64,000 bases of DNA from Gemmatimonadota bacterium. GTDB taxonomy: Bacteria; Gemmatimonadota; Gemmatimonadetes; Gemmatimonadales; GWC2-71-9. Below the pieces are notes generated by a model. It ran no database searches. It was not told the origin of the DNA and was given only the letters and a program-made list of their open reading frames with translations. This document shows positions 55,187-63,348 of this stretch, piece by piece (the stretch's first letter is position 1; each line of letters starts with the position of its first letter). The stretch is from contig QHUB01000009.1 of NCBI GenBank assembly GCA_003221035.1, positions 62,001 through 126,000 on the forward strand, read 5' to 3'. A program made the position numbers and the translations under genes.

Positions 55187-55927
55187 GTGTTCTTCTTTCA
55201 GGTCCGCGGAGCGATCCCCACGACGCCGTGGGAGCTGGTCCTCACGTCGAGTCGCGAGACGCAGTTCGTGCTCGGCATCCTCGCGGTCTTCTCGCTCGTG
55301 TCTTGGTATCTGATCGTGCTGAAGTGGTGGCAATTCCGACGCATGCGCCAGCTTGGCGACCGGTTCCTCGCGGAGGTGGAGAAAGCGCCGCGGCTCGAGG
55401 ACGCCTATCACGCCGCGATGCGGTTGCCGCCGTCGCCCTACAATCGCTTACTGCGTGAGGCCGTGCACTTCTTCTCCGAGCTGAAACCGGGAAGTCTGAA
55501 AGGCACCGGCGTCGCGACCAGTCCCGCGGCTGCCGCCGCAGCCGCCACGACGTTGACGACAACCCAACTCGAAGCGTTGCGCATGGTGCTCGCGAAAGAA
55601 GTCGGCGCCGAGCGCGACACCGCCGCCCGCTTCATTCCATGGCTGGCGACCTTCGGTTCCGTCAGCCCGCTGCTCGGACTCCTTGGCACGGTGCTCGGCG
55701 TGATGGACGCCTTTATCGGCATCGCGGTCGGTGGCTCGGGCAATATCACGGCGGTCGCGCCCGGCGTCGCGGAGGCCTTGGTCACGACGGTCGGCGGCCT
55801 TGCGGTGGCCGTTCCCGCCGTCATGGCGTACAACCTGTACGTCAGCCGGCTGGGTCTGTTTGCCGGGGAGCTCGAGGGCTTCGCGCAGGAGATCGTGGGC
55901 ACGCTGGCCCGGGAAGGACGGATCTGA
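55187..55927 (+). CDS. tolQ: TolQ/ExbB proton-channel protein
   Basis: 246 residues from GTG 55187, with GAGGAGG four bases upstream. Three transmembrane segments: about 28-48, 155-180 and 200-222, the latter in GVAEALVTTVGGLAVAVPAVMAYN, the MotA/TolQ/ExbB signature. With TolR it forms the stator that uses the proton gradient to drive TolA. First of a complete Tol-Pal series. Confidence 0.94.
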   Translation: MFFFQVRGAIPTTPWELVLTSSRETQFVLGILAVFSLVSWYLIVLKWWQFRRMRQLGDRFLAEVEKAPRLEDAYHAAMRLPPSPYNRLLREAVHFFSELKPGSLKGTGVATSPAAAAAAATTLTTTQLEALRMVLAKEVGAERDTAARFIPWLATFGSVSPLLGLLGTVLGVMDAFIGIAVGGSGNITAVAPGVAEALVTTVGGLAVAVPAVMAYNLYVSRLGLFAGELEGFAQEIVGTLAREGRI

Positions 55928-56364
55928 TGGCGGGTGGACTGCTGGGCGGGGGAGGTCTTCGCGGGCATGGCGAATTGCCGCTCAACGCCGATATCAATGT
56001 CACGTCGCTGGTGGACGTCGCGTTCGTGCTGCTGATCATCTTCATGATCACCGCTCCGATCATGCAGGGCGGCGTCGATGTGCGCCTGCCGCGTGCGCAG
56101 GTGCGCGCGATCGAGCCCAAACAGGGACTCGTCGTCACCGTCGACGCGGATGGCAAGATCTACCTGGACCAGGCCGGGCTCTCGTACGAAGACTTCCAGG
56201 CGACGTTCCCGGCATTCGTGCGAACGAAACGCCCCACGGGGGTGTATCTGCGGGCCGATGGACGAGTCGCATATGCTCGCGTGGTTCAGGTCCTGGCCGT
56301 GATACGAGGCGCGGGCGTGCAGGACGTGGGACTCGTCGCGGAACCGGAGACGATCGACCGATGA
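55927..56364 (+). CDS. tolR: TolR/ExbD biopolymer transport protein
   Basis: 145 residues from ATG 55927, sharing a base with the tolQ stop. An N-terminal Gly-rich cytoplasmic stretch precedes one transmembrane helix with the essential Asp: DINVTSLVDVAFVLLIIFMIT. The periplasmic domain ends VQVLAVIRGAGVQDVGLVAEP. Normal length. Overlaps the next gene by ATGA. Confidence 0.94.
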   Translation: MAGGLLGGGGLRGHGELPLNADINVTSLVDVAFVLLIIFMITAPIMQGGVDVRLPRAQVRAIEPKQGLVVTVDADGKIYLDQAGLSYEDFQATFPAFVRTKRPTGVYLRADGRVAYARVVQVLAVIRGAGVQDVGLVAEPETIDR

Positions 56365-57041
56365 GACGACGCGGCGCGCCGGCTCCCATAGGAATGGCGA
56401 TGACCGGCACGCTCGTGCTGCACGGCGTGGCGGGCCTGCTGCTGTTCGGGACGCCGAGCGCGCACAAGCGCATTCCACCGACCTATCGCGTGCATCTGGT
56501 CGCCGCACCGGCCCCGGACCTGGAGGAGCGGAAAGCGCCCGAGGCCGTCGAGCGGCCGGCTGAAGAGAAACCGGCGCCGATTCCCGCGCCGAAGCACCCC
56601 CAGAGTACGGTGTCGCGCGCGACCCCGCCCCCGAACCGGGATCAGACCAAACGCGAAGCCGCGCCGCGGACGACATCGAGCAATCAGCCGCTCCCGGGCG
56701 AAAAGCCGTCAACCGGCAATGACGTTGCAACCGTCAGCACCGAGGGTGTGGCGTTCCCGTTCCCCGAGTATTTGCAGAACATCGTGTCTCAGGTGCTGCG
56801 CCGCTGGCAGCGTCCGGCGCAAAGCACGCCGCTCGAGGCTGAGGTGTCGTTCTTCGTGCATCGCGATGGCTCGGTGACCGACCTGAACTTCATCCGGCGC
56901 TCCGGCAATTTCGCGTTCGATCTCGAGGCACAAGGGGCCGTCGAAGAGGCGGGTCGCTTCCGCGCGTTCGGCTCGCTGCCGGATGGCTGGCTGTCCGACG
57001 TGCTGTTCGTGCGGTTCTATTTCTCGGGGCAGAGGCAATGA
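56361..57041 (+). CDS. TolA/TonB-like energy-transducing protein
   Basis: 226 residues. A membrane anchor near residues 12-30 (MAMTGTLVLHGVAGLLLFG) is followed by a Pro/Glu/Lys-rich spacer (residues 50-110), then a C-terminal TonB/TolA-type domain (VAFPFPEYLQNIVSQVLRRWQRP ... VSFFVHRDGSVTDLNFIRRSGNFAFD). Given its place between tolR and tolB it is the TolA equivalent, although the C-terminal domain is closer to TonB_C. The start overlaps tolR and the end overlaps tolB. Confidence 0.9.
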   Translation: MRRRGAPAPIGMAMTGTLVLHGVAGLLLFGTPSAHKRIPPTYRVHLVAAPAPDLEERKAPEAVERPAEEKPAPIPAPKHPQSTVSRATPPPNRDQTKREAAPRTTSSNQPLPGEKPSTGNDVATVSTEGVAFPFPEYLQNIVSQVLRRWQRPAQSTPLEAEVSFFVHRDGSVTDLNFIRRSGNFAFDLEAQGAVEEAGRFRAFGSLPDGWLSDVLFVRFYFSGQRQ

Positions 57042-58396
57042 CTCCGCTCTTGTTGGCCGCCTTGCTCGTCGTGCAGGACACCACCTCGATCGATCGTGGA
57101 GTGCGGATCGGCATCGTTTATCGTCCCGGCGTGCGGCCGGGGCTCGTGATGTTGCCCAGGGCCGGTATGGGTCTCGATTCGGTGCGTGCGATTGTGGGCC
57201 GAGACTTGGACTACAGCGATCGCTTCGAGATCATCACGCTGCCGGCCGGTGACTCGATCCGTCTGGCGGGCACGTCGTCATCCACGCGCAGCACAGCCAC
57301 TCGTCGCTCCACGGGCACCGGAACCGGCGGCGCGCAGTCGAGCAGCGCACTCAACTATCCCTTATATCAGGCGCTCGGCGCCGACTTCGCGTTGGACGTG
57401 ACGGCAGCCGGCGATACGACGGTCTTCACGCTCCACGATATCGCCGCCTCCGGCATTCGCCGCACCGTACGGGCTCGGCTCCCTCGTGCCGGTGATGCGA
57501 GTTTCCGGATGGCCGTGCATCGTCTCGCCGACCAGGCGCTGCAGGCGGCGCTCGGCGCGCCGGGGATCGCGGCCACGCGCGTGCTGTTCGTGCGCGATGG
57601 CAAAGTGTATCGGATCGATCAGGACGGTGCGGACCAGCAGCTCGTCTCGTCCACCGATCGCCAGGCGATGTCGCCGGCATGGGGCGCGGACGGACAGCAT
57701 TTCGCCTACATGGAGTTTCAAGCAGGCAAGGGCTGGCTCTACCTGCAGGAGATGGCCACGGGCAAGCGGACCGCAGTGCCGACCACGGGCACTGCGCTGG
57801 ACTTCACGCCGGCCTTTTCTCCCGACGGTCAGACGCTCGCGTTCAGTCGCGCGACGGAGGAAGGCACGGATCTGTATACGATTAACCTGAAGAACAGCTG
57901 TTGCTTACGGCGCTTGACCGTGGGGCGGTTTTCTGACAACTTGTCCCCGACGTTCAGCCCGGACGGGCAACGGATCGCGTTCGTCTCGACGCGACCGGGT
58001 CTGCCGCAGATTTATGTCATGGCGGCCGACGGCACCGACCAGCAGTTGTTCGCACCATTCGATTACGGCGTCACCGGGGCGTCCAACGCGCCGGAGTGGT
58101 CCCCCGACGGGCAATCGGTAGCGTTTCACCGGGACGTGGCCGGGACGCTGCAGGTGTTCGTGCTCGATGTCCGAACCCGCACCGTCCGCCAGCTGACCTC
58201 GGTGGGACGTAACGAGGATCCAACCTGGGCGCCCGACAGCCGCCACCTCGCCTTTGTTTCCGACCGGTCGGGTTACCGTCAGTTATGGATCATCGATCTC
58301 GAGACCGGCCGGATCCGGCCGTTGCTGCAGCAGAGCGGGGAACGTTTGCCGGCCTGGTCTCCACGGCTGTCGGAGGCCTCTTCTTCCACCCCCTGA
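57038..58396 (+). CDS. tolB: Tol-Pal system protein TolB
   Basis: 452 residues from ATG 57038. The very short hydrophobic N-terminus (TPLLLAALLVVQD) serves as signal. The N-terminal domain (to about 170) contains a Ser/Thr-rich insert (SSSTRSTATRRSTGTGTG). A six-bladed WD40-like propeller follows with repeated SPDG/APDS motifs, such as FTPAFSPDGQTLAFSR and LSPTFSPDGQRIAFVSTRPG. It interacts with Pal in the periplasm. Slightly longer than E. coli TolB (430). Confidence 0.93.
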   Translation: MTPLLLAALLVVQDTTSIDRGVRIGIVYRPGVRPGLVMLPRAGMGLDSVRAIVGRDLDYSDRFEIITLPAGDSIRLAGTSSSTRSTATRRSTGTGTGGAQSSSALNYPLYQALGADFALDVTAAGDTTVFTLHDIAASGIRRTVRARLPRAGDASFRMAVHRLADQALQAALGAPGIAATRVLFVRDGKVYRIDQDGADQQLVSSTDRQAMSPAWGADGQHFAYMEFQAGKGWLYLQEMATGKRTAVPTTGTALDFTPAFSPDGQTLAFSRATEEGTDLYTINLKNSCCLRRLTVGRFSDNLSPTFSPDGQRIAFVSTRPGLPQIYVMAADGTDQQLFAPFDYGVTGASNAPEWSPDGQSVAFHRDVAGTLQVFVLDVRTRTVRQLTSVGRNEDPTWAPDSRHLAFVSDRSGYRQLWIIDLETGRIRPLLQQSGERLPAWSPRLSEASSSTP

Positions 58397-58409
58397 TCGG
58401 AGAGACAGG

Positions 58410-59021
58410 ATGAAATCGGTATCGTTGTTCCTCGCGCTCGGTCTTGGCGCCGCCATCGTTGCGGCGTCGTCCTGCGGCGGCAAAAAGCCTGCGCAGACCG
58501 CGCCGACACCCAACGCGGACTCGGCCGCGGCCGCGGACCGGGCGCGTCAGGACTCGATCGACGCGGCGAACCGCGCGGCCCAGGACGAAGCGGAGCGGGT
58601 CCGGCGCCAGCGTGAAGCCGATTCGCTCGCGGCACTCTCGCGGGCATCGGAAGACGTCCGTAATACCCTGGCGGCCATGATTCACTTCGACCTCGACAAG
58701 TCGAACGTCCGGTCCGACGACATGGGGTCGCTCGATCAGAAGGTCGCCATCCTGCAGGCGAATCCCGATTTACGGATTCGGATCGGCGGACACTGCGACG
58801 AACGCGGCTCCGACGAGTACAACCTCGCGCTGGGCAATCGCCGCGCGCAGTCGGCGAAGCAGTACCTCGTGAGCCACGGGATCGATGCGGGCCGCATCGA
58901 GACGCAGTCGTTCGGCGAGGAGCGGCCGCTGGTCGACGGCCATGATGAATCGGCCTGGTCGCAGAACCGGCGTGCCGAATTCGAAGTCGTGAGCGGCGGT
59001 GACAATCTCCACCGTCCGTAG
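58410..59021 (+). CDS. pal: Peptidoglycan-associated lipoprotein Pal
   Basis: 203 residues from ATG 58410 (RBS CAGGA). Lipoprotein signal ends AASSC (Cys22). An Ala/Asp/Arg coiled linker (40-85) leads to the OmpA-like peptidoglycan-binding domain: MIHFDLDKSNVR, IGGHCDERGSDEYNLALGNRRAQSAKQYL and SFGEERPLVDG with the Asp/Arg that hold diaminopimelate. Outer-membrane anchor of the Tol-Pal system. Confidence 0.95.
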   Translation: MKSVSLFLALGLGAAIVAASSCGGKKPAQTAPTPNADSAAAADRARQDSIDAANRAAQDEAERVRRQREADSLAALSRASEDVRNTLAAMIHFDLDKSNVRSDDMGSLDQKVAILQANPDLRIRIGGHCDERGSDEYNLALGNRRAQSAKQYLVSHGIDAGRIETQSFGEERPLVDGHDESAWSQNRRAEFEVVSGGDNLHRP

Positions 59022-59787
59022 ACTCGCCGTCTTGTCTCTGCTGGGGCTCGCCTCCGGATGCGCGCTGAAAGGCGACGTCCGGAAGGTCGAGCTCCAGGTG
59101 CAGGCGTTGCAGGCAGATCTCGCCAAGAGTGATGCGGCCCGCGCGGCGGATCACGACACCGTGGTGGCCGCCATCAAGTCGCTGCAGCAGGCGCTCGACC
59201 GACAGCAGGCGTATCTCGTCCAGCTGCGAGGCGATTTGCGTACCGAATTGATCTCGGTCGAGCAGCAGCTCGTTTCGGTCCAGGAGCTGACCGGGCAAAG
59301 CCAGCAGCGGCTCAGCGAGCTCCGGTCGCGGCTGGACGCCCGGTCGCAGCAGCCGGATCCGAACGCCGCAGCGGGCGGCCCCCCGGTTGGTCCGTCCGGC
59401 AACCCCGCCGGGCCCGGACCCGACCAGATGTACGATCTCTCCTTGCAACAGTACCGTCGCGGCAGCCTCAGCACCGCGCGGCTTGGATTCCGGGAGTTCC
59501 TGCGCGTCTTCCCCACGCACGAGCATGCACCCGACGCCTTGTTCTACGTTGGGGAGAGTTTCGAGCAGTCTGCGCCCGATTCCGCGGCAGCGGTGTACGA
59601 TCAACTCGTGCGCACTTTCCCAAATTCGTCACGAGCGCCGTCAGCGCTGTACAAACTCGGTCTCCTCGCGGAGCAGCGGGGCGACAAGAGCACGGCGCGA
59701 ACCTTCTATAATCGGGTGGTCGCGGGTTACCCCCGTGCGCCCGAGGCCGATCTCGCGCGGCAGAATCTGCAGCGTCTTCGGCCGTAA
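58999..59787 (+). CDS. cpoB: CpoB/YbgF-like coiled-coil TPR lipoprotein
   Basis: 262 residues from GTG 58999, which lies inside pal. Lipobox ASGC (Cys21) would make it a lipoprotein, unlike E. coli CpoB, which is soluble. A coiled coil (residues 28-115, KVELQVQALQADLAKSD...) is followed by a Pro/Gly linker and TPRs (MYDLSLQQYRRGSLSTARLGFREFLRVFP, HAPDALFYVGESFEQ). CpoB couples Tol-Pal constriction to peptidoglycan synthesis. Position after pal is canonical. Confidence 0.92.
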   Translation: MTISTVRRLAVLSLLGLASGCALKGDVRKVELQVQALQADLAKSDAARAADHDTVVAAIKSLQQALDRQQAYLVQLRGDLRTELISVEQQLVSVQELTGQSQQRLSELRSRLDARSQQPDPNAAAGGPPVGPSGNPAGPGPDQMYDLSLQQYRRGSLSTARLGFREFLRVFPTHEHAPDALFYVGESFEQSAPDSAAAVYDQLVRTFPNSSRAPSALYKLGLLAEQRGDKSTARTFYNRVVAGYPRAPEADLARQNLQRLRP

Positions 59788-59814: not shown

Positions 59815-62800
59815 ATGACTGCCCGCGGTGAGATGCCGTTTCTCGATCATCTCGAGGAGCTGCGCTGGCGCATCCTGTGGAGCCTCCTTGCGATTTTCGC
59901 CGGCACGATCATCGGCTGGTTCCTGCTCGACAAGATCGACATCATCGAGGTTCTGAAGCGACCGATCGCACCGTATCTCCCCGGTGGGCGGCTGATCTTC
60001 ACGAGCCCCGCCGAGCCGTTCATGCTCACGCTGAAGGTCGCGTTTGCGCTCGGCTGCCTGCTGGCGTCACCAATCATCATCTATCACATCTGGGCGTTCT
60101 TGGCGCCGGCGCTGTACGAGCGGGAGAAGCGGCTCATCATCCCGGCGCTGGCCGTCGGCGTCGTGCTGTTCCTGGCGGGTGGGATCGCGTGTTACCACTG
60201 GTTGCTTCCGGCTGCCCTGAAAGTGCTCATCGGATTCTCACGTTCCGATTTGACCCCGATGATCACGATCGACCGCTATTTCGGCATGGCAGTGCCGTTC
60301 GTGGCGGGCTGCGGCCTCGTCGCCGAGCTGCCGCTCGTCGTCACGATCCTCGCCTCGCTGGGGATCGTCACGCCGCAGTTTCTGGGACGGCAGCGTCGCT
60401 ACGCGGTCGTGATCGCCGCGTTCCTGGCCGCCATTCTCACGCCTCCCGATGCCGTCTCGATGATGTTGATGCTGATCCCGCTGCTGCTGCTCTATGAGAT
60501 CAGCATTTGGTGCGCGTACGTGGCCAGCCGGCGCCGTGCGCGGCGCGCGGCAGCTGCCACGCTCGTCCTGTTGCTGGTCAGCATGGGATCGCTCCGCGCG
60601 CAAAACCCGCCGCCGGCTCCTCCACCGCCACCGGCGCAGCGGGTTGTGCAGGACTCGGGCGCCGTGGTGAAGCCACCCGGCGTACCGGGCGACACCGGCC
60701 GTCGCGGCTCGATAGACACCGCGACGGCCCGCAAGCAGGGTCTGCCCACCGGACCGTCCCGCTCCTTCCCTCCTTCTGATGCCGTCATGGATTCACTGCT
60801 CAAGCTTCAAGGCTACCAAGTGACCCACTACATGGCGGACACCTTCGTCGTGGTCGGCGACAGCCAGACGATCTTTTTGCGGCGCGAAGCCTACGTTGAT
60901 CGGGAGGGCACCCAGCTCCAAGCCGACTCGATCCGCTACCACGAGGCGAGCTGCCGGCTGGATGCCACGGGGAATCCGCAGCTCTTCGATCAGGGCACGG
61001 TCCTGATCGGGGAAGGGATGCGCTACGACACCTGCCGGCACCGCGGCACGGTCCGGGATGCGCTCACCGACTTTCAGCAAGGCGGCGTCACCTGGTATGT
61101 GAGCGGCCAGGCGTTCGCCAACGACTCGAATTCCCGCCGTGTGTACGCGAGCAAAGCGCGCTTCACGTCGGATCCGCAGCCGGTCCCCGACTACCATTTT
61201 GCGGCCGGGCAGGTGAAGTGGATCAATAAGCGCACGATGATCGCGCGTCCCGCGGTGCTGTACGTGCGAGACGTTCCGATTATGTGGCTGCCGTTCATCT
61301 TTCAGGACATTCGCGGCGGCCGGCGCAGCGGCATTCTGTTTCCGCGGTTCGGCATCAACGATCTCGTTCGGCCGAGCCGGCACTACACTCGGCACATCTC
61401 CGACTTCGGGTACTATTTCGCGGTCAACGATTATCTCGACGTGCTGGTGGCCGGCGACTGGTTCTCGGGCCGGTATATCCAGGTTCACAGCCAGGCCCAG
61501 TATCACATCATCAGCCGGTTCATGAATGGACAGCTGAGCTACACGCGGATGCAGGAGCTCGATCATCCGGGCGTCAACACGACGATCGGCTGGAACCACT
61601 CGCAGCAGTTCAGCTCACGCAGCTCATTGAACGCCAATGTGCTCTACGCGACGGATGGAAGACTGGTGCAACGCAACTCCACGAACCCGTGGGAAGTCGT
61701 CGCGCGCATGAACTCGACCCTGAACTTCGAGCGCCGGTTTTCATGGGGGACGCTGAACGTCGGCGGCTCGCGGTCGCAGGATCTCTCGTCCAACAACGTT
61801 TCGCAGACATTCCCCACGATCAACCTCACACCCTCGAGCGTGAACATCACGCCATGGATGACGTGGTCTCCCGCGTTTTCGTTTACGAACGACATGCAGT
61901 TCCATCAGCCCGCCGCCGCGCTGCTGATTCCCGCGCCGGCGACGGACACGGTCCCGCTCGATACGCTGCATCTCTTCAACGACGTGCGTCGCACTCTGAT
62001 GACGTTTTCGACGCCGCTGCGGATCGGCCGCTGGAACTGGGCCAATAATCTTCAGATCACCGATGGCCGGACGCACGGACGGACGGAGTATCAGTTGCCC
62101 GACAGCACGGGCGCCGTGCACCGCGTGGTCTATGGCCAAACGTTCGAGACGCGCGTCGAATGGCAGACGGGCATCAATCTGCCGTCGTTCTTCTCCAGTT
62201 CGTGGAAACTGCAGCCCGGAGTGTCGATCGTGAACGCGACGAGTGCCGGGCCCTTCATGATTCGCAATCAATTCACGGGCGGAGAGTTTGTGCGGCAGGG
62301 CAAGCGCCTGCAATTCAGCGCCAGCGTCACGCCCACGTTCTTTGGATTTTTCCCGGGCTTCGGTCCGTTTTCGCGCATCCGGCACTCATTCTCGCCCCAG
62401 GTGAGCTGGCAATATGCGCCCGCGGTCGCCGTCCCCAAGGATTTTGCGCATGCGGTCGATCCCACCGGTCGCACGGTGAATTTGCACTCCGATCCGCAGC
62501 AGACGATCAGCGTTCAGCTGTCGCAGTCGTTCGAGGCCAAGGTGAAGTCGGCCGCGGGAGATACCGCGGCGGAGCGCGAGCCTCGCAAAGTCAAGTTGTT
62601 GAGTATCCAGACGAGCGGGATCGGGTACAACTTCGAGGCTGCCAAACTGCCGCACCGCACCGGCTGGCAGGATGCGCAGCTGCGAAACTCGTTCTTGTCG
62701 GATCTGCTGCCCAGTTTCCAGCTCAGTCTCACGCACGACCTGTGGAAGGGCGACGTCGGCACGGACTCGGCAAAATTCGATCCGTTCCTGTCGAGCGTGT

Positions 62801-63348
62801 CCGCCACATTTACCGTGACGCCCGCGACGATCCAGGGCATCGGCCGCATGTTCGGCCTGAAGCCGCATCAGGAGCAGGCGGCTCGTCCGGACACCGCGGC
62901 GGCCCTGGATACGGTCGCGCAGCAAGCCGGCAACTTCCGGCGGTATTCGGAGAACACACGAATCCCGTATTCCCCACGCGGCACGGGAGCGGGAATGCTG
63001 GGCGCCGGCGGACGCGGCTTCACGCTGGGGGTCTCGTTGTCGAGCTCGCGGAGCCGCTTTGACACAACGGCGCAACAGAAGAACCAGCCCGGCCGTCGGA
63101 CGGCCGCGATAAACATGTCGTTCACTCCGACGCGCAACTGGACGGCCAATTGGAGCACGCAGTTCGACATGGCCACGCGCCAGTTCTCCTTCCACCAACT
63201 CACGTTCCAGCGCGACCTGCGCCGCTGGCGCGCGAGCTTCGCGTTCAGCCGCACCGCCACCGGCAATTTCTCGTTCAGTTTCAACATCACGTTGAGCGAC
63301 CAGCCCGACATCAAGTTCGACTACGATCAGAGCACGTACGTCCGCTAG
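59815..63348 (+). CDS. tatC: TatC fused in frame to an LptD/OstA-like outer-membrane protein
   Basis: One uninterrupted frame of 1177 residues. Residues 1-235 are a full TatC: MPFLDHLEELRWRI, six membrane segments and LTPPDAVSMMLMLIPLLLLYEISIW. TatC is the core of the twin-arginine translocase. ATG 59833 is an alternative start. At residues 236-262 an Arg-rich then hydrophobic stretch with AQN after it looks exactly like a signal peptide, and in-frame GTG 60520 could start a separate protein there. The remaining about 915 residues begin with a Pro-rich linker, then an OstA-like domain (about 330-480) and a long beta-rich barrel typical of LptD, which inserts LPS. Whether it acts as fusion, cleaved polyprotein or two products is open. 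Confidence 0.85.
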   Translation: MTARGEMPFLDHLEELRWRILWSLLAIFAGTIIGWFLLDKIDIIEVLKRPIAPYLPGGRLIFTSPAEPFMLTLKVAFALGCLLASPIIIYHIWAFLAPALYEREKRLIIPALAVGVVLFLAGGIACYHWLLPAALKVLIGFSRSDLTPMITIDRYFGMAVPFVAGCGLVAELPLVVTILASLGIVTPQFLGRQRRYAVVIAAFLAAILTPPDAVSMMLMLIPLLLLYEISIWCAYVASRRRARRAAAATLVLLLVSMGSLRAQNPPPAPPPPPAQRVVQDSGAVVKPPGVPGDTGRRGSIDTATARKQGLPTGPSRSFPPSDAVMDSLLKLQGYQVTHYMADTFVVVGDSQTIFLRREAYVDREGTQLQADSIRYHEASCRLDATGNPQLFDQGTVLIGEGMRYDTCRHRGTVRDALTDFQQGGVTWYVSGQAFANDSNSRRVYASKARFTSDPQPVPDYHFAAGQVKWINKRTMIARPAVLYVRDVPIMWLPFIFQDIRGGRRSGILFPRFGINDLVRPSRHYTRHISDFGYYFAVNDYLDVLVAGDWFSGRYIQVHSQAQYHIISRFMNGQLSYTRMQELDHPGVNTTIGWNHSQQFSSRSSLNANVLYATDGRLVQRNSTNPWEVVARMNSTLNFERRFSWGTLNVGGSRSQDLSSNNVSQTFPTINLTPSSVNITPWMTWSPAFSFTNDMQFHQPAAALLIPAPATDTVPLDTLHLFNDVRRTLMTFSTPLRIGRWNWANNLQITDGRTHGRTEYQLPDSTGAVHRVVYGQTFETRVEWQTGINLPSFFSSSWKLQPGVSIVNATSAGPFMIRNQFTGGEFVRQGKRLQFSASVTPTFFGFFPGFGPFSRIRHSFSPQVSWQYAPAVAVPKDFAHAVDPTGRTVNLHSDPQQTISVQLSQSFEAKVKSAAGDTAAEREPRKVKLLSIQTSGIGYNFEAAKLPHRTGWQDAQLRNSFLSDLLPSFQLSLTHDLWKGDVGTDSAKFDPFLSSVSATFTVTPATIQGIGRMFGLKPHQEQAARPDTAAALDTVAQQAGNFRRYSENTRIPYSPRGTGAGMLGAGGRGFTLGVSLSSSRSRFDTTAQQKNQPGRRTAAINMSFTPTRNWTANWSTQFDMATRQFSFHQLTFQRDLRRWRASFAFSRTATGNFSFSFNITLSDQPDIKFDYDQSTYVR

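Follow-up and report, generated by a model that had tools for sequence, protein, structure and literature searches.

A fused tatC-lptD gene conserved in a family of Gemmatimonadota and its probable role as a polyprotein with a shared internal signal peptide

The window analysed here is a stretch of 64,000 nucleotides from a Gemmatimonadota genome (G000), and the features located on it below are all on the forward strand. Positions 55834 to 59787 carry a series of tol-pal type genes, these being ExbD/TolR, a TonB_2/TolA-like gene, a TolB-like beta-propeller, Pal/OmpA and a CpoB-like TPR gene. The last of these ends 27 nt before an open reading frame that runs from an ATG at 59815 to a TAG at 63348, and because of this close spacing the tol-pal type envelope genes and the frame are likely to be co-transcribed. 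The frame has 1177 codons with no internal stop, and its 1177-residue product consists, in order, of a complete TatC, a short arginine-rich stretch, a signal-peptide core ending in Ala-Gln, a disordered linker and a full LptD. An earlier sequence-only reading had claimed an uninterrupted TatC/LptD frame of this length, and the ORF itself, the Pfam matches to both halves and the relatives described below all confirm it.

The TatC half comprises residues 1 to 238 (59815 to 60528), with the last TatC helix ending at about residue 237. Pfam TatC (PF00902) matches residues 11 to 222 over the whole of its profile (1 to 208 of 208), with an E value of 2.1e-63 and 214 bits against a cut-off of 25.1, and the NCBIfam tatC equivalog (TIGR00945) scores 194 bits against a cut-off of 132.7. 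Solved TatC relatives match this half at E 3e-49, and Foldseek recovers the six-helix TatC fold, with TM-scores (target) of 0.85 for 4b4a and 0.86 for 4hts (2.7 Å). Residues F95 and E104, which we take from their offset to be the equivalents of the signal-peptide-binding residues F94 and E103 of E. coli, are invariant in 68 fusions. A search of the genome shows that this is its sole tatC, and nearly all members of the family have one TatC match each; the TatA/TatB partners are represented in the source genome by three TatA_B_E matches. The fused TatC is thus like the rest of its family (PF00902, TIGR00945) in its complete domain, its fold, its conserved Glu, Phe and Pro positions and its being the only TatC of the genome, but it has no stop or free C-terminus of its own, and its shortened tail is shared with a signal peptide. 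Given that there is no stop between the halves and no other tatC, the firmest conclusion is that TatC can be made solely as the front of a long chain, whatever happens to LptD.

Mature LptD is placed at 60601 to 63345, on the basis of a Pfam match, a structural model and fold comparison. Pfam LptD_2 (PF19838) matches residues 476 to 944 (E 2.9e-39, 135.5 bits against a cut-off of 22.5), and the fused ORF gives the only such match in the genome. AlphaFold2 was used to build a model from 68 fused relatives, with a mean pLDDT of 74.7. It contains the TatC helices, disorder at residues 246 to 301, jellyroll strands at about residues 337 to 515 and a beta-barrel at about 525 to 1160, and so has the N-terminal jellyroll and C-terminal barrel of LptD. 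When Foldseek was run against the PDB, the top 15 matches were all LptD or LptDE (best E 1.6e-26), so that fold and sequence both identify the second half as LptD. What distinguishes it from other LptD proteins is that it needs no start codon of its own, its signal peptide apparently borrowing the tail of TatC. In E. coli, the disulfides of LptD join the jellyroll to the barrel, this being a feature of proteobacterial LptD and not of the whole family. That pattern is not found here: the only near-invariant cysteines in the LptD half of the 68 fusions are C380 and C407, a pair confined to the jellyroll. The LPS pathway and the Lpt exporter are represented in the source genome by LpxC and by LptF/LptG.

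The source is a metagenome-assembled genome, and one relative (G062, counted here as split but ambiguous) has a one-base difference within a G-run at the joint. Both observations might suggest an artefact of assembly, sequencing or gene calling, with a stop or frameshift missed near 60520. The family to which the source belongs, however, has 82 loci in which both halves are on one contig, and in 76 of them, from 32 genera and several projects, the joint is open and the frame identical. These include single-contig assemblies or assemblies of few contigs (one contig for G116, five for G080), and every congener with sufficient coverage has the unbroken frame. Such conservation across independent assemblies rules out both chance and assembly error, and the probability of an artefact of any kind is negligible. 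It had been proposed that relatives with a stop separating the two halves would refute the fusion; such stops are absent from nearly all of the family and are present mainly outside it. One contig scan, which covered close relatives only, found the fusion in Gemmatimonadetes MAGs that came from soil and groundwater projects.

The joint itself has a regular anatomy. From L226 to A247, that is, from the last TatC helix through the basic cluster, the alignment of 68 sequences has no gaps, so that R239 to R244 (RRRARR, 60529 to 60546) are continuous with TatC; they form its basic cytoplasmic tail and would double as the n-region of an internal signal peptide. The hydrophobic core and c-region follow at residues 245 to 262 (60547 to 60600), ending in S-L-R-A, and beyond the predicted cleavage site is a proline-rich, indel-rich, disordered linker at residues 264 to 301 (60604 to 60717). 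In all but one of the 77 fusions with a readable joint, 36 to 45 residues separate the YE motif of TatC (residue 227) from the cleavage motif, and a mean of 5.2 Lys/Arg and 0.4 Asp/Glu follow the last TatC helix. The basic, hydrophobic and small-residue-Gln parts are present in 77 of 77, the motif itself having been searched for. The free TatC proteins of split relatives carry this basic tail too (4.5 against 4.8 Lys/Arg over the ten corresponding positions), followed by a further tail that is absent from the fusions, and the hydropathy of the core of this seventh segment, 1.66, is close to the 1.61 of split-gene LptD signal peptides. Given that the tail matches free TatC and the core matches split LptD, a TatC tail has been joined to an LptD signal-peptide core, and the fusion event dropped the stop, the start and the n-region that belonged to LptD. 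These comparisons favour the topology suggested earlier, in which the C-terminus of TatC and RRRARR would stay inside and the next segment would export the barrel half. The AlphaFold2 model is silent on the seventh helix and on cleavage, because pLDDT is below 50 at residues 246 to 301. Export of LptD by Tat rather than Sec, by means of the arginine-rich stretch, was also considered and rejected: there is no Tat consensus, and the arginines are those of the TatC tail in split relatives.

The predicted signal peptidase I site lies between A262 and Q263 (60598 to 60603). All 68 fusions have Gln at residue 263, with zero entropy in an independent alignment, and 61 of 68 have Ala at residue 262; the nearby residues 259, 261 and 264 belong to the most variable positions. 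The source genome has three signal peptidase I genes. An invariant Gln at +1 is hard to explain otherwise, and we infer that the site is cut, which is one of the two options raised in the sequence-only reading, namely a polyprotein cleaved by signal peptidase.

An Ala-Gln pair at the cleavage site, the Q-rule, has been described for signal peptidase I substrates of Bacteroidetes (PMC5837995). The site described here is like those substrates in having Ala-Gln (PMC5837995, PMC10653852), but the host phylum is Gemmatimonadota, for which neither PMC5837995 nor PMC10653852 reports a Q-rule. It is worth adding that Gln directly after the signal peptidase I site is favoured in secreted proteins of the source genome (loci L172 to L191 and the window). 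Across 411 kb of this genome, 12 of 18 Ala-polar signal-peptide-like ends have Gln, compared with 12% in protein bodies (p = 1e-7), a preference with which Q263 of the fusion agrees.

A tree of 112 taxa, calculated from TatC plus LptD, places one gain of the fusion at the base of the family, with a node support of 1.00. There is a second, independent gain in a different family, in two genomes of 1.8 and 2.1 Mb (G127 and G238; loci L147 and L146) that have an identical joint anatomy, their sisters G299 and G331, like the other sampled members of the genus, being split. Within the fused family there are also nested re-splits (G064, G078/G079, G011 and G111). In the sister families tatC and lptD adjoin, commonly with a 4-nt GTGA/ATGA overlap. 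The ancestral state is therefore a separate but coupled gene pair. In a genome of another family (G142; locus L148, oriented positions 71 to 1672), two tandem TatC-like segments precede lptD, which is an apparent duplication of tatC.

One further genome of the fused clade (G013; loci L118 and L141) has lptD alone behind a CpoB-like gene. This lptD has an ATG and a signal peptide of its own, and the tatC of the genome is on another contig. The LptD of this genome groups within the fused clade (0.97) and its TatC within another Gemmatimonadota family (0.92). Contamination was rejected as the source of the tatC contig, since its GC content and tetranucleotide profile fit the genome. The simplest reading is that a foreign tatC came in by apparent horizontal replacement and that the TatC half was then lost. 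That the TatC half was lost once it had been replaced implies that this half does work while it is fused, and that LptD does not need the tie. The sequence-only reading had also proposed a link between the Tat translocase and LPS assembly: shared synthesis is upheld, but a necessary functional link is argued against by this genome.

These genomes also bear on the possibility that the chain is left uncut, giving a trans-envelope protein in which TatC is covalently tied to LptD and the linker at 264 to 301 crosses part of the periplasm. A disordered, proline-rich linker directly after the seventh segment would suit such a protein. However, the linker is short and rich in indels, the signal peptidase site is kept with its invariant +1 Gln just as in split LptD proteins, and the tie is dispensable both in the genome with the replaced TatC and in the re-split genomes, all of which make an uncut chain very improbable.

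A different possibility is that LptD comes mainly from separate initiation within the joint, with the fused chain as a by-product; TatC would even then be made only within the long chain. In the source genome the only start codon from which a separate LptD could be made that has a basic n-region is a GTG (V236, 60520 to 60522), which would give MASRRRARR..., and some start codon is present near the joint in 45 of 77 fusions. The ancestral split genes were coupled through GTGA/ATGA overlaps, and the predicted Shine-Dalgarno affinity at the candidates is somewhat greater than at random in-frame GTGs. Against this, the GTG at 60520 is not conserved among fusions, and 15 of 77 have, between YE and the hydrophobic core, no ATG, GTG or TTG from which LptD would keep even one basic residue; start codons are absent from the tighter joint region in 32 of 77. 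Of the 105 valine codons at the joint, 51 (48.6%) are GTG, compared with 52.2% elsewhere, so that there is no enrichment, and start codons at the joint are at background frequency. Shine-Dalgarno pairing at the candidates is -4.77, compared with -4.70 for synonymous shuffles (p = 0.99), a null result that carries little weight, because the positive control, in which the test was applied to the real starts of split genes, was only weakly positive (p = 0.15). Clearly re-split relatives, by comparison, do have an ATG or GTG near the tatC stop. Internal initiation as the main source of LptD is therefore unlikely, although some separate LptD may be made at the joint start codons of the 45 fusions, and in the source genome this could happen at the GTG at 60520.

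The reading that we prefer, with a probability of roughly 0.8, is that the fused gene encodes an obligate polyprotein, in which the basic tail of TatC doubles as the n-region of the LptD signal peptide and which is cut between A262 and Q263. Any ribosome that completes TatC has to go on into LptD, there being no stop and no other tatC. On this reading, the six helices of TatC would insert so as to leave the C-terminus on the cytoplasmic side, and RRRARR, homologous to free TatC tails, would stay inside as the n-region, with LptD contributing the hydrophobic core and the Ala-Gln site. The LptD half, of about 900 residues, would be exported by Sec, and signal peptidase I would release it for the outer membrane. 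TatC would stay in the inner membrane, with the remnant of the signal peptide as a seventh, C-terminal helix. Such a gene would have arisen when a coupled tatC/lptD pair lost its stop/start overlap together with the n-region of lptD, and it would fix the synthesis of TatC and LptD at 1:1. The fifth and sixth helices of TatC are its docking side for TatA and TatB. A more speculative extension, to which we give a low probability, is that the seventh helix is kept permanently beside these two helices, and that this helix, the 1:1 synthesis or both have a function, either in coupling Tat capacity to LPS-insertion capacity or as a built-in TatA/B-like helix.

The nearest known precedent is FbcH of Bradyrhizobium japonicum, a cytochrome b/cytochrome c1 polyprotein that is separated by signal peptidase. 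In both cases one reading frame leads from a polytopic inner-membrane protein through an internal signal peptide to an exported protein, the parts derive from neighbouring genes of one operon, and signal peptidase separates them, as predicted for the protein described here. The two share no sequence, and the products of FbcH are subunits of one complex, whereas here an inner-membrane Tat subunit is joined to an outer-membrane beta-barrel with an unrelated job. A literature search of incomplete coverage found no described TatC-LptD fusion, in agreement with the sequence-only reading. The working principle is thus known from FbcH; what is new is the pairing of TatC with LptD, the separate destinations of the two products, the basic tail that is shared, the conservation across a family and the second origin.

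The fused gene would be a conserved natural polyprotein whose products belong to different membranes and to unrelated machines, one for the export of folded proteins and the other for outer-membrane biogenesis. It implies that TatC can work when it lacks a stop and tail of its own and carries additional C-terminal sequence, and that the n-region of an internal signal peptide can be supplied by the membrane protein next to it. With two origins, several re-splits and one replacement of TatC, the family offers a natural experiment in the passage from operon coupling to protein fusion and back.
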